The notes under the pieces were generated by a model. The model did not search any database, had not been told where the DNA came from, and worked only from the letters and a program-made list of their open reading frames with translations. Positions 10,599-19,744 of a DNA stretch of 64,000 nt are shown here, in pieces. The stretch comes from Halobacteriales archaeon QS_4_66_20 (GTDB lineage Archaea; Halobacteriota; Halobacteria; Halobacteriales; Haloarculaceae), in NCBI GenBank assembly GCA_003021015.1, contig PXRK01000038.1, positions 1-64,000 on the forward strand, read 5' to 3'. The position numbers were made by a program, and so were the translations under genes. The first letter of the stretch is position 1. The number at the start of each line of letters is the position of its first letter.

Positions 10599-12020
10599 CT
10601 ACGAACCGGGGCCCCGGAAGGGGGACGGCGACGGTGAGGGTCGCTCGGTCGTCATCGTGTACAGCGAACCGGCAGCGGCGACGGATCCGTCACCGACGGA
10701 GCCGAGCAGTATCACAAACGTTTCGGCCGTGGCAGGCTGCTCGCGAGCGTTGAGCCGACGGAGCACGGTCTGCAGCGACCGCTCGCCGTCGCTCGCCAGC
10801 CGCAGCCGCCGGTCCAGGTCGCTCGCGACGAGCGCGCCCAGGCAGTAGTCGGCGCTAGGCTCCCAGGTATCGGGGCTGGACAGCGTCGACGCGCCGAACT
10901 CCCCGTCCGCACAGCTGTCGAGCCTTGCCCGGATCGCGTCGCCGGACACCAGCCCCTGTTCGAGTGACAACAGCGCGGCGTAGTACACCGCTGTGCCTTC
11001 TCTGGTCCACTCCAGGTCGGGCGCCAGCCGGTAGCCCTGGCGCGTATGGACGTACTCGTGGAGCCAGACGTTCTCCGGCGTGGCGAGCGGTTCGTCGGCC
11101 TGCACCCAGAAGTCTGCCGGGCCGCGCTGGAGCCCCCTGAGCTGCCACTCGACGCCCTCGGTCGGTGCAGCGACGACAAACACCTCGTCGTCGCGGTCGC
11201 CGACCCGCAGGGTGTCCGAGGCCGCCGCGAGCGAGTCGAGCAACGCCCTCCGGTCGACGGAGAGAGCGGTCGCTTCGGGTACGATCAGGCGAAACTGCTG
11301 TCCGTGGGCTTCCCGGGTGTACTCCCGGTACGGTCCAAAGTACACCATGCGCTGGCCGGCGGCTCCCTCCCCGGCAACCCGGACGCTCCGTTCGAGTCCA
11401 ACGGGCTGATCGTCCCAGGTCCAGTGGTGGTCCGGCTGTGGCTGTTCGACGATTGCCCACTCGCCCGCGTCCACGTACGCGTACTCGTCCGACACCGCGC
11501 GCAGGTCGCCGTCGTCGTGCGACCGGTTTGCCGGCATCTGGTACGTGAGACTGACTGCCGTCCGCGCGCCCGTCCACTCGTAGGTCCCGTTCCCGGCGTG
11601 ACTGAACCCGCTCTTGTCGGTGACCGTCGCCGCCGGCGGCAGCCGAACCCTCAGCGATCGGAGCTCCTCCGGCACGCGATACTCGTGACTGGCCTGGAAC
11701 GTCCCCTGCTGTTTTACCTGCACGAACCGCTGGGTGTAGGCGATAGCCGACCGCTGATCCGTCGGCTCCTGAGGACCCGCTGCGGACGCGATGAGTGTCC
11801 CGAGGGGCGAGTCGGGTGCGGCCGATACCCCTCGATGTGGCGGCCAGGACAGTTGCCTGACGCCCGGAACGGTTTCCCCGGCCAGGACGCTGTGACTGAT
11901 CACCGCGTCGACGTCCTCGGCGGAGACAGATAGTGCGGCACCGCCAGTGAACCCAAATCCAACCAAGACGAAACAACCGAGACATAACATGGCACAGACC
12001 AGGCCCGATCGCAAACGCAT
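10599..12020 (-). CDS. Secreted HExxH metallopeptidase-like protein
   Basis: The 473-aa protein starts with a signal segment (LRSGLVCAMLCLGCFVLVGFG). A beta-rich region follows, then HEYVH at residues 321-325 and WTREGTAVYYA with Glu341, the arrangement of zinc gluzincin peptidases of the M1/M61 type, though the H-to-E spacing is shorter than in classic members. It should act outside the cell. There is no C-terminal membrane anchor; the end is a Ser-Pro tail (PSPSPSPFRGPGS). It is divergent from a small zinc ribbon gene, with element C1 between them. The peptidase call rests on the motif. Confidence 0.75.
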   Translation of the reverse strand: MRLRSGLVCAMLCLGCFVLVGFGFTGGAALSVSAEDVDAVISHSVLAGETVPGVRQLSWPPHRGVSAAPDSPLGTLIASAAGPQEPTDQRSAIAYTQRFVQVKQQGTFQASHEYRVPEELRSLRVRLPPAATVTDKSGFSHAGNGTYEWTGARTAVSLTYQMPANRSHDDGDLRAVSDEYAYVDAGEWAIVEQPQPDHHWTWDDQPVGLERSVRVAGEGAAGQRMVYFGPYREYTREAHGQQFRLIVPEATALSVDRRALLDSLAAASDTLRVGDRDDEVFVVAAPTEGVEWQLRGLQRGPADFWVQADEPLATPENVWLHEYVHTRQGYRLAPDLEWTREGTAVYYAALLSLEQGLVSGDAIRARLDSCADGEFGASTLSSPDTWEPSADYCLGALVASDLDRRLRLASDGERSLQTVLRRLNAREQPATAETFVILLGSVGDGSVAAAGSLYTMTTERPSPSPSPFRGPGS

Positions 12021-15118: not shown

Positions 15119-18115
15119 ATGCGCAGACGAGAGTTCGGACGTGGATTGCTCGGAATCGCTGGACTGCTCGCGACTGGCACGGCCAGTGGCGAGGGCCAGT
15201 TCGACACGACGAGCGAACAGCTGTCCGCCCAGAGTGAGGGGATCAACCGGCTGCTGTTCCCGTCGACGGGCGGGCTGCTCGACGCGAACATGGAGCCGCT
15301 GACCGACGACTCCCTGATTGCAGTCTGGGCCGAGTCGACGGCGGTCATCAACGACCGCGACGGCGACGGCGACGCGGTCGACTATCCCGACGACATCGAC
15401 ATTCCGCTGGTGGGGATCGACGAGGTCGGCGACGGGACGGTCGCGGCGATCGGCTCGCAGCTGGTCGACGACGGCAACCTGGTGCCGAAACTCGAGGGTG
15501 AGGACCCGCTGGGCGACCTCGGCAACGAGGAGTTCCTGCTGAACCTTTACGACGAGTACGCGGGCGGCGACCGGATCCTCTGGGACGAGAGCCACGGCCA
15601 GTTCTACACCCTCGACCGGTTCCGGAACTTCGCGGCGTACGCCGAGGACAACGGCTACACCGTCGAGGCGACGACGGACCTGACCGCCGACCTCGACGAC
15701 GCAGGCGTCCTGGTCGTCACCTCGCCCAGCGATTCGTTCAGCGACGCGGAGCTGTCGGCGCTGTCGGACTTTGTCGCCGACGGCGGCCTGCTGGTGATGC
15801 ACAACCAGTCGGACTTCAACAACTTCGACGAGACGGCCAACTTCAACGACATCGCCGCCGACCTCGGGCTCGGCTTCCGGTTCAACGACGCCGAGGTGGG
15901 CGACGAGGAGAACAACGTCGGCATCTACTACCTCCCGCTGACGGCGAACTTCAACGACGCGTTCCCGCTGTTCGCGGATCGCGAGGGGATCACCATCGAC
16001 CTCCAGCGGGGGGTGGAGTACGACGTCACCGTCGAGGACATCGCTGACGGCGACACGGTCGACGTGGTCTTCGACGGCGCGGACGTCGGGCTCGAAACCG
16101 ATTACACCGGGACCATCCGGCTCCTGGGGATCGACACCCCCGAGAGCGCCAGCGTCGCCGCGTCCGCGGAGCGCCCCGAGGAGTGGGAGGGGCTGGCCTA
16201 CGACGCCGGCGAGGTAGACCCCATCGACGAACTCGTGTTCGACTCGACGGCGAGCCTGCTGGACGCCGACGGCCAGCCGCTGACGGGCGACGGTCCGGCT
16301 GTCGTCTACGCCGAGCCGACAGCGTTCAACGTCGACGAGGACGGCAACGGCGACGCGGTCGAGTACCCCGACGACGCCGACATCCCGCTGGTGGCCGTCG
16401 ACGGCACCGTGGCGGGACTCGGCGCGCCGTTCGTTGACGACGGGTTCGACGCCACCGCCGACAACGAGGAGTTCCTGCTGAACCTCTACGACGAACTAAT
16501 CGACGGAGACACCGTGCTGTGGGACGAGAGCCACGGCCAGTTCTACGACCTGGCCTCGTTCCCCGAGTTCGAATCCTACGCCGAGGCGGAGGGGTACGAC
16601 CTGCAGGCGACCGGCGACCTCGAGAACGACCTCGGCGGCGCTGACGCCGTGGTGGTCACGTCACCGGCCGACGCGTTCTCCGATTCGGAGCTGTCGGCGC
16701 TGTCGGAGTTCGTCGCCGACGGCGGCGCGGTGCTGTTCCACGACCAGTCCGACTTCAAGGACTTCGACGCGACGGCGAACCTCAACGACCTCGCTGACGC
16801 GCTCGGGCTGGCGTTCCGGTTCAACGACGATCAGGTGCTCGACGAGGACGAAAACGCCGGCCAGCCGTTCGTGCCGACGACCGGGAACTTCGACGGGTCG
16901 TCGTCGCTGTTCGAGACGCGGGCCGGGATCGACGACGACCCCGACGCGCGCACGACCGAGTACCTGGTCGAGTGGGCGGGCAAGGCGACGGAGTTCGCCA
17001 ACCGGCTCGACGGCGAGGACGTGACGCTGTTTTTCGACGAGAACGAGCCGCTCCGGGACCCCACCCGGCTGCTGGCGTACATCCGGTACGACGACTCCGG
17101 CGACGGCGGGCGCGACACCCTCTACAACAGGCAGATCATCGAGGAGGGGTACGGCCGCGTCTACGGCTCGACGTTGAGCCGCCACGACGAGTTCTGGCAG
17201 GCCGAGTGGGACGCCCGGCAGGCCGACACCGGCATCTGGGCCGAGAGTGACATCGACGACGCGACGCCGTACCGCGACGACGGGCTGGAGGAGGTGTTCG
17301 CCCCCGTCGCGGCGAGCGTCGGCACGGCCGGCAACCCCCCGGCACAGCCCAGCGGGACGCTGTTCGCCGAGCCCTCGGCCGAACGGGACAGTCCCCGACA
17401 GTCCGGCCGGATCCCGCTGTTCGCCCGCGACGAGGACGCCCGGACGGCGGTCGGTGGCAGCCTCCTGATCGACGAACGCTACGAGCGCCTCGAAGGCTTC
17501 GATGTCGACACGTCCGGCTACGACAACTTCTCGTTCGTGACGACGCACATCGAGTCGCTCACCGACCAGGACGGCCTGGTGTTCGTCGACGGCGGGCACG
17601 GGCAGTTCGGCGCCGACTACGCGCTATCCAGCGAGGATATGGCGTACTACCAGCGCCACCTCGAAGGCCGCGGCGTCAACCTCGAACAGCTCAACGACCT
17701 CACGCTCGACCGCCTCTCGATGGCGAAGGCGCTCATCATCACCACGCCCGCGACGGCGCTCACCCAGGACGAACTGGACGCGGTCGAGGCGTTCCGCGAC
17801 GCCGGCGGCGCGGTCGTGCTCATGGGCTCGGCGGCGGCGCCCGACGACGCCATCGCGAATCTCAACGGCGTCGCCGACGCGCTCGGGACGGACCTCCGGG
17901 TGAACACCGACCAGGTGGTCGACGCCGAGAACAACGTGAACGAAGACCCCGAACTGCCCGCAACTCAGCGGGTCAACATGGTCGAGCGCTACCTCGACGA
18001 GAACGGCGAAATCGACCTCCAGACCGTCCAGGAGGCGTTCCAGGACTCCCAGGACGGCCTGATCGAAATCCGCATCGTCCAGCGCCTCTTCCAGATTTAC
18101 CTGGAGAACAACTGA
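15119..18115 (+). CDS. Large secreted protein: three GATase1-like repeats and a split SNase domain
   Basis: The 998-aa product starts MRRREFGRGLLGIAGLL, a Tat-type signal. Repeat 1 (about 40-295) and repeat 2 (about 367-608) are close duplicates (DESHGQFY, VTSPSDSFSDAELSALSDFV); repeat 3 (about 745-945) is diverged. They look like DUF4350/ThuA-type class I glutamine amidotransferase folds. A staphylococcal-nuclease-like domain starts near residue 301 (TIRLLGIDTPES, with Arg334, Asp339 and Glu342), breaks at about 366 and resumes at about 610 (EYLVEWAGKATEFAN, Arg650 in TRLLAYIRY, TGIWAE). The catalytic set is preserved on both sides. The C-terminal 45 residues resemble a dockerin-like tail. 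I infer an extracellular nuclease with binding or scaffold repeats. Confidence 0.82.
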   Translation: MRRREFGRGLLGIAGLLATGTASGEGQFDTTSEQLSAQSEGINRLLFPSTGGLLDANMEPLTDDSLIAVWAESTAVINDRDGDGDAVDYPDDIDIPLVGIDEVGDGTVAAIGSQLVDDGNLVPKLEGEDPLGDLGNEEFLLNLYDEYAGGDRILWDESHGQFYTLDRFRNFAAYAEDNGYTVEATTDLTADLDDAGVLVVTSPSDSFSDAELSALSDFVADGGLLVMHNQSDFNNFDETANFNDIAADLGLGFRFNDAEVGDEENNVGIYYLPLTANFNDAFPLFADREGITIDLQRGVEYDVTVEDIADGDTVDVVFDGADVGLETDYTGTIRLLGIDTPESASVAASAERPEEWEGLAYDAGEVDPIDELVFDSTASLLDADGQPLTGDGPAVVYAEPTAFNVDEDGNGDAVEYPDDADIPLVAVDGTVAGLGAPFVDDGFDATADNEEFLLNLYDELIDGDTVLWDESHGQFYDLASFPEFESYAEAEGYDLQATGDLENDLGGADAVVVTSPADAFSDSELSALSEFVADGGAVLFHDQSDFKDFDATANLNDLADALGLAFRFNDDQVLDEDENAGQPFVPTTGNFDGSSSLFETRAGIDDDPDARTTEYLVEWAGKATEFANRLDGEDVTLFFDENEPLRDPTRLLAYIRYDDSGDGGRDTLYNRQIIEEGYGRVYGSTLSRHDEFWQAEWDARQADTGIWAESDIDDATPYRDDGLEEVFAPVAASVGTAGNPPAQPSGTLFAEPSAERDSPRQSGRIPLFARDEDARTAVGGSLLIDERYERLEGFDVDTSGYDNFSFVTTHIESLTDQDGLVFVDGGHGQFGADYALSSEDMAYYQRHLEGRGVNLEQLNDLTLDRLSMAKALIITTPATALTQDELDAVEAFRDAGGAVVLMGSAAAPDDAIANLNGVADALGTDLRVNTDQVVDAENNVNEDPELPATQRVNMVERYLDENGEIDLQTVQEAFQDSQDGLIEIRIVQRLFQIYLENN

Positions 18116-18262: not shown

Positions 18263-19744
18263 ATGGACTCGAATTCCTTCACGCGACGGCGCGTTCTGAG
18301 TGCGCTGGGTGCAACTGGAACGCTTGCGCTGGCCGGCTGTGCGGGTGATGACGACGGGGGGAACGGCAACGGGAACGGGAGTGGTAACGGGAACGGGAAC
18401 GGAGACGGGAACGGGAATGGTAACGGAAACGGGAATGGGAACGGGAACGGAAACGGCAATGGCAATGGAAACGGGAACGGCACGACCGAGGACGAGGACG
18501 GCAGCATCAGCATCGGGCTGTTGCAGGCCTTCTCGGGTGCCCTCCCGCAGTACGGCGCACAGGGGACGACCGGGTTCTACAGCGGGCTGGCGTACAAGGC
18601 CGAAGACAACCCGCTGGGGAACGAGGCGGTCGACGAGGGCGATTACGAGTACAGCGTCGGTGACATCGACGTCGAAATCCTTGCTCGTGACACGCAGTTC
18701 GACCCCGCCCAGGCGCAGGAGCTGGCAGAGCAGCTAGTCGCCCAGGAGGGCGTCGACATCCTGTACGGCGTCGCCAACTCCGGCGGCGCGATCAACATCA
18801 TCAACCAGGTCGTCGACCAGTCGGGCGTCCCGTACATCCCCGGGCCGGCGGCCTCGGCGGACATCACCGCCGGCTCGGAGACGTGTCGCGAGCGGGTGTT
18901 CCGGGCCAACGAGAACACCGCGATGGACGCCCGCAGCGGTGGCGTCTACATCGCCGAGAACACGGACGTCGAACGGATCGCGCTGTTCGGCGCCGACTAC
19001 AGCTTCGGTCGCGCCGTGGTCGAGGGGTACAAGCAGGTCCTGCAGGACCGCGGCGTCGAGATCGTCTTCGAGCGGTTCGTCGACCGCGGCTACTCGGAGT
19101 GGCCGGGCCTGCTCGAACAGGCCGAGGAGGCGGGCGCTCAGGGGATGGTCGGAGGGTTCACCGCTCGGACGCTGATCCCCTTCGCGAGTTCGTTCCTGCA
19201 GGGTGAGTACGACCTGCGGCTGTTCGGCGGGTTCGCCTCCCGCGTCACGCTCGCGGCCGCAGGGGAGGTGCTCGCGGACACGCTGGGGCCGGAGTTCACC
19301 AACGAGGGGCTGGCCGACGCGCAGTTCGGTCCGTTCACGACCCGGTACCACTGGAACCAGTACGACAACGAGATCAACAACACGTTCGTCGAGATGCACC
19401 GCGAGACGTACTCCGTCGTGCCGGACCTGTTCACCGGCGGCGCGTTCACCGCCGGCTCGGCGATCATCCAGGCATTCCAGGACGAGGGCGAGGTCAGCGC
19501 CGACGCGATGGTCTCGGGCATGCGCGGCATGACGGTCACGGACACGCCGAAGGGCGAGAACGGTTACGAGTTCCAGGAGTACAACAACCAGGCCCGCTCG
19601 GAGATGACGGTCGCCCCGGTCGAGGTGACGCCCGACGACCAGAGTCATTGGCCGGCGGCGATCATGCCCGGCGAACCGATCGAGACGGTCCCGGCCGACG
19701 CCGTGACGATCCCCGCCGACCAGATGTCGTGTGACCTCTCGTAG
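18263..19744 (+). CDS. LIV-type ABC transporter substrate-binding lipoprotein (system 1)
   Basis: The 493-aa protein has an RR signal and lipobox (LALAGC, Cys near residue 27), an Asn-Gly linker (about 33-72), and a Leu/Ile/Val-binding-protein fold: SIGLLQAFSGALPQYGAQG at the start, then GGAINIINQVVDQSGVPYIP and FGADYSFGRAVVEGYKQVL. It captures an amino acid, amide or similar ligand outside the cell and feeds the permease encoded downstream. It is the first gene of a five-gene operon. The exact ligand cannot be read from sequence. Confidence 0.9.
   Translation: MDSNSFTRRRVLSALGATGTLALAGCAGDDDGGNGNGNGSGNGNGNGDGNGNGNGNGNGNGNGNGNGNGNGNGTTEDEDGSISIGLLQAFSGALPQYGAQGTTGFYSGLAYKAEDNPLGNEAVDEGDYEYSVGDIDVEILARDTQFDPAQAQELAEQLVAQEGVDILYGVANSGGAINIINQVVDQSGVPYIPGPAASADITAGSETCRERVFRANENTAMDARSGGVYIAENTDVERIALFGADYSFGRAVVEGYKQVLQDRGVEIVFERFVDRGYSEWPGLLEQAEEAGAQGMVGGFTARTLIPFASSFLQGEYDLRLFGGFASRVTLAAAGEVLADTLGPEFTNEGLADAQFGPFTTRYHWNQYDNEINNTFVEMHRETYSVVPDLFTGGAFTAGSAIIQAFQDEGEVSADAMVSGMRGMTVTDTPKGENGYEFQEYNNQARSEMTVAPVEVTPDDQSHWPAAIMPGEPIETVPADAVTIPADQMSCDLS
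18359..18480 (+). repeat. Asn-Gly coding hexanucleotide tract
   Basis: A (GGNAAC)n-like tract encodes the linker of the LIV binding protein. It is of the same type as those at 583 and 47749. Confidence 0.85.

Follow-up and report, generated by a model that had tools for sequence, protein, structure and literature searches.

A haloarchaeal SNase domain split at its omega-loop by a nested DUF4350/GIFT domain

A thermonuclease (SNase) fold split by a nested domain has been described in Tudor-SN (SND1/TSN), a eukaryotic protein whose SN5 domain holds a Tudor insert and has degenerate metal-binding residues (PMC5900569). In the open-licence literature this was the only precedent found for a nested or split thermonuclease. 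Exported SNases are known from haloarchaea as well. Hvo_1477 of Haloferax volcanii, a YokF/Nuc-like surface nuclease, is a lipoprotein with a lamin-tail domain and is required for growth on extracellular DNA (PMC3929857). DUF4350/GIFT domains occur in GldG, IFT52, OST Wbp1 and arCOG01314, and the described members are tied to transporters, cilia or glycosylation. GIFT domains have been suggested to bind sugars (PMC7226087), and arCOG01314/DUF4350 proteins have been linked to GldG (PMC5898192). None was described inside a nuclease in the literature searched.

The window, a stretch of 64,000 nucleotides of a haloarchaeal MAG contig, holds at 15119-18115 on the forward strand an ORF, confirmed here, of 998 amino acids plus stop, with an ATG start followed by a twin-arginine signal (MRRREFGRGLLGIAG). 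The product is very acidic (pI 4.05, 22% Asp+Glu) and is probably exported through this Tat-type signal, as judged from sequence. The whole sequence has zero Cys residues, so the protein has no lipobox and is not a lipoprotein, unlike Hvo_1477, which in turn has no DUF4350/GIFT domain (hereafter, G domain). From the N to the C terminus, the domains are G1, SNase N-half, inserted G, SNase C-half and G3, placed as follows (residues are those of the protein; L numbers denote individual relatives).

15119..15193, forward strand: Tat-type (twin-arginine) signal peptide MRRREFGRGLLGIAGLLATGTASGE, from sequence, with low pLDDT over residues 1-39
15242..15994, forward strand: G1, the N-terminal DUF4350/GIFT domain, residues 42-292 (Pfam DUF4350 E 1.2e-21, three stretches; alignments)
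16019..16201, forward strand: SNase N-half, residues 301-361, strands b1-b3, ending at the conserved ERPEEWEG (profile i-E 9.6e-14; residue conservation)
16223..16933, forward strand: inserted G domain, a G1-type copy, residues 369-605 (56% identity to G1; tree grouping)
16955..17254, forward strand: SNase C-half, residues 613-712, with helix 1, b4-b5, helices 2-3 and Arg650 (Pfam SNase 604-708 E 4.2e-7; profile i-E 5.7e-35)
17351..17959, forward strand: G3, the more distant C-terminal G domain, residues 745-947 (33-36% identity to G1 and the insert; own clade, support 100, starred)
17960..18112, forward strand: C-terminal tail, residues 948-998, two predicted helices (dN/dS 0.85 against L071; no Pfam match)

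We confirmed that the interruption is real, in that an otherwise complete SNase domain is split by a G domain. A profile built from the nucleases of 87 uninterrupted relatives matches the protein in two colinear pieces, with model 1-53 on residues 301-361 and model 51-151 on 613-711 (i-E values of both listed above), and gave 0 matches in 200 shuffled copies of the protein. The sequence-only reading had placed the halves at 301-366 and 610-709, and these borders are right to about 7 residues. The profile rows were cut without the short loop, so the exact meeting point of the two pieces is partly set by construction, with homology unaffected.

In terms of Pfam, the full protein shows three DUF4350/ABC_transp_aux/GIFT stretches and a single SNase stretch, at 604-708 only. 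PF00565 is found in the whole protein with 30.8 bits (cut-off 21) via the C-half only, which alone scores 28.8 bits, and no Pfam match was found for the N-half piece alone. The N-terminal strands with the DGDT ... R..G.DTPE motif are present at 301-361. The NCBIfam thermonuclease models (calcium-activated nuclease EcnA, NucI) report two stretches each, with scores below their cut-offs.

The interruption as a whole spans about 360-612, with the inserted domain at about 369-605 and linkers at about 360-368 and 606-612. At the junction the uninterrupted relatives read ...ERPEEWEGIEDATYLESYG... or, in a further example, ...VRMLGIDTPEKASNSQYERPEEWEGIEDATYLESYGASATDYA..., and in the window protein ...IRLLGIDTPESASVAASAERPEEWEGLAYDAG is followed by the G domain and after it by DDDPDARTTEYLVEWAGKATEFA.... 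The interrupted relatives have their G domain between EWEG and YL. In an alignment with the S. aureus nuclease, the junction maps to the omega-loop, at about residues 44-52, beside the active site, and the profile match of the C-half to solved SNases starts at residue 52. An intein or other protein-splicing element was considered and rejected, as the insert is a complete G domain, Cys is absent and there is no intein family match.

Asp312, Arg334, Asp339, Thr340, Glu342 and Arg650 correspond to D21, R35, D40, T41, E43 and R87 of SNase. Four of them (Arg334, Asp339, Glu342 and Arg650) had been named beforehand as surviving catalytic residues; they are present and do not vary among the nearest homologues, and the same holds for Asp312 and Thr340. 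The equivalents of all six are kept in 20/20 interrupted nucleases, and catalytic and Ca2+-ligand conservation in this set is no different from that of the 87 uninterrupted ones. The R87 equivalent sits in the C-half, apart from the other five in the N-half. Selection is thus preserving residues on both sides of the insert that could make up a single site only with the two halves brought together.

Both halves and the insert are under similar purifying selection, with dN/dS of about 0.19 (roughly estimated by NG86). Against L071, which is 82% identical, the values are 0.185 for the N-half, 0.189 for the insert and 0.180 for the C-half. The gene thus encodes an enzyme of unusual architecture and is not a broken one; on its residues, the enzyme is most likely active and Ca2+-dependent.

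AlphaFold models were obtained for the window protein (35 sequences; mean pLDDT 83.6, pTM 0.63, a moderate value) and for an L130 fragment with two inserts (mean pLDDT 79.3, pTM 0.47). The nuclease elements appear in the models in canonical order, b1-b2-b3 in the first half and helix 1-b4-b5-helix 2-helix 3 in the second, with good pLDDT. The N-half strands are predicted at 301-310, 313-318 and 329-335. In both models b1 has 10 residues and its hairpin partner b2 has 5-6 (6 in the window protein), and short strands are found at 338-339 and 680-681 (41-43 and 639-641 in L130). In SNase, such strands pair with partners located in the opposite half. The overlong b1 and the short strands, which need partners, thus imply pairing across the halves. 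Foldseek, which does not bridge the gap of about 250 residues between the halves, matched both models to SND1 and extended-Tudor structures. For the proposal that the nuclease may fold around the insert, the models and residue conservation give indirect support: SNase elements are predicted in both halves, and closure of a single OB-fold barrel across them is read from DSSP only.

This architecture is a new variant of the SNase family, with no description found in the open-licence literature. Its nearest precedent is SN5 of Tudor-SN, a likeness of nested architecture, with insertion points not compared in structure. In contrast to SN5, the haloarchaeal protein keeps all its metal-binding residues and the insert is DUF4350/GIFT.

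The three G domains share sequence and fold family with DUF4350/GIFT (DUF4350 78.3 bits, cut-off 30.4; GIFT 61.4 bits, cut-off 27.2; three stretches each). In contrast to the described members, they sit in and around a nuclease. Foldseek matched them to the IFT52 N-domain (GIFT), with rmsd 2.1-2.7 over 85-97 columns, and also to part of the IMPa peptidase. An active amidotransferase or cyanophycinase was rejected, since Cys is lacking and the likeness is at fold level only. Asp-rich stretches (DxDGxGDA) are conserved in the G domains.

The insert had been described as a close copy of the preceding domain, and this was confirmed (55.8% identity to G1 over 249 aa, E 6e-85); what was duplicated is a full domain together with short linkers. 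A third copy is indeed present after the nuclease, as had also been stated, but its identity to G1 and the insert is low, at 33-36% (36% to the insert). G3 is found in almost all relatives. A tree of 100 G domains splits inserts and N-terminal domains from C-terminal ones (support 100, starred). For the window gene and L002-L004, the inserts group in one clade (98, starred) and the N domains in another (97, starred), so the duplication predates the species of these genes. The inserted G is most likely a binding module for a glycan, a polymer or a partner protein.

Beyond G3, some relatives have a dockerin-like/EF-hand tail, and L130 a PPC tail, at the position where the window protein has its fast-evolving two-helix tail. 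This variation was mapped at 17960-18112 of the window, L037:8902-9801 and L130:9580-9957.

Matches to the protein were found in 40/146 genomes of the same family and, at 1e-15, in 194/392 genomes of a class-wide sample, many of these probably via the plain SNase domain only. A GTDB contig scan gave 75 loci, nearly all in Halobacteria. The commonest layout in the domain maps is the uninterrupted G-SNase-G, seen in Haladaptatus, Halorussus, Haloferax larsenii and Halegenticoccus, which is the same three-part protein with the same nuclease and has an omega-loop region of 3-31 residues.

The interrupted form accounts for about twenty haloarchaeal genes with a common insertion site, over several genera and families. 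Carriers include Halovenus carboxidivorans, Halosimplex aquaticum (complete chromosome NZ_CP118158), Haloarchaeobius iranensis and several MAGs. In three cases, Halorubellus salinus (L130), L156 and archaeon A07HR60 (L082), the nuclease contains two G domains in tandem. The spacing of the halves is trimodal, with 3-31, 244-284 or 506-512 residues. Interrupted and uninterrupted paralogues occur within one genome in four pairs (L073/L094, L076/L100, L074/L124 and L130/L099).

Some further variations of the layout were found. The first G domain is missing (SNase-G) in one genus (L016, L017, L020, L021), and Natrialba and Natronococcus forms have several G domains ahead of the nuclease. In this type (L056, L115, L121, L134, L138, L141, L143), five or six G matches, some of them half-domain, precede an uninterrupted nuclease. 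At L041:5609-10337 and in L057, a divergent interrupted form is directly followed by a stand-alone uninterrupted SNase gene.

A search for uninterrupted relatives, suggested at the outset, found them in abundance; as most relatives and the G-less SNases are uninterrupted, the insertion is the derived state. In the nuclease tree, a free search gave four label changes, and none beyond one is forced by the starred branches. Holding the interrupted nucleases together gave a likelihood of +22 against the free search (p-AU 0.785). For the inserts, the free search gave 6-7 label changes and the AU test does not reject the tree in which they are held together (likelihood +26 against the free search, p-AU 0.803, run without L012). 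Rather than a fresh duplication, the insertion is an old event common to the interrupted genes, and the trees make a single ancient origin probably the best reading.

The ancestor would be the widespread haloarchaeal G-SNase-G protein. A full copy of its upstream G domain would have entered the omega-loop, between Glu43 and helix 1, probably once. Joined to the loop by short linkers, the G domain would leave the nuclease its OB-fold barrel and would stand beside the mouth of the active site, where the G module may hold the nuclease on a substrate or surface. The enzyme would cut extracellular DNA or RNA, with extracellular DNA most likely used as a phosphorus or nutrient source.

Deletion of omega-loop residues 44-49 of SNase is reported, in a passage of PMC9491731 citing Poole 1991, to raise activity and stability, which suggests that the insertion site is permissive. 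This permissiveness, the sugar binding proposed for GIFT domains and the role of Hvo_1477 speak for a nuclease that acts outside the cell and has binding modules. We give a probability of about 0.72 to an exported, catalytically intact nuclease that folds around a binding domain held by a permissive omega-loop. Its architecture and homology, the common insertion site, the conserved residues and the purifying selection are shown here, and the joint folding of the halves, the activity, the extracellular role and the binding role of G are what we infer.

A doubtful alternative makes the enzyme ligand-gated, with the nested G sensing a glycan, calcium or a cell-surface partner and controlling substrate access, and with the two-domain versions as elaborations. 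The insert would then be a regulatory lid: on binding a ligand or taking up calcium it would shift the omega-loop and so turn the nuclease on or off. The G domain is indeed inserted in the loop adjoining the active site, the insert is selected as strongly as the enzyme, and the Asp-rich stretches of the G domains would suit such a role. However, the DESHGQ motif is degraded in the Haloarchaeobius inserts, some proteins have one insert and others two, as would be expected of a tether more than of a tuned switch, and uninterrupted paralogues coexist with the interrupted form; a lid thus seems improbable.

Somewhat less probable still is a dead nuclease, with the SNase halves as a scaffold displaying three G domains. 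The nested SN5 of Tudor-SN has lost its metal-binding residues (PMC5900569), but all checked catalytic and Ca2+-ligand positions are kept across the 20/20 interrupted sequences and dN/dS is low in both halves. A neutral recent duplication accident or an assembly artefact is very improbable. L034, the nearest copy in a MAG (97% identical), is indeed frameshifted, yet the same junction is found in about 20 genes, one of them on a complete chromosome, from several genera and families, and the inserts of different species are orthologous to one another (98, starred, for L001-L004) and separate from the N domains of the same proteins. An assembly chimera or recent accident was rejected on this shared junction. 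The L034 copy, at L034:6210-8988 in MAG SW_10_66_29 (same region as L074), lies in three overlapping frames, through sequencing error or decay.

As for the gene neighbourhood, none is conserved beyond the two nearest genomes, so no process or operon is indicated. Downstream of the nuclease gene are ABC transporter genes of the branched-chain amino-acid type. A substrate-binding lipoprotein of an ABC transporter operon (window 18263-19744, forward strand) has a long Gly-Asn repeat spacer past its lipobox. At 10599-12020 on the reverse strand, the window encodes a secreted-looking protein of 473 aa with a HEYVHTRQ (HExxH-like) motif and no Pfam match.

Automatic annotation covers half of such nucleases (Pfam 604-708) and may label them as truncated. 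A small textbook enzyme fold appears to tolerate an insert of 240 or 500 residues in its active-site loop, with all checked catalytic residues kept. The uninterrupted, single-insert and double-insert versions, together with paralogues of the same genome, would make the effects of nesting on folding and catalysis directly measurable.
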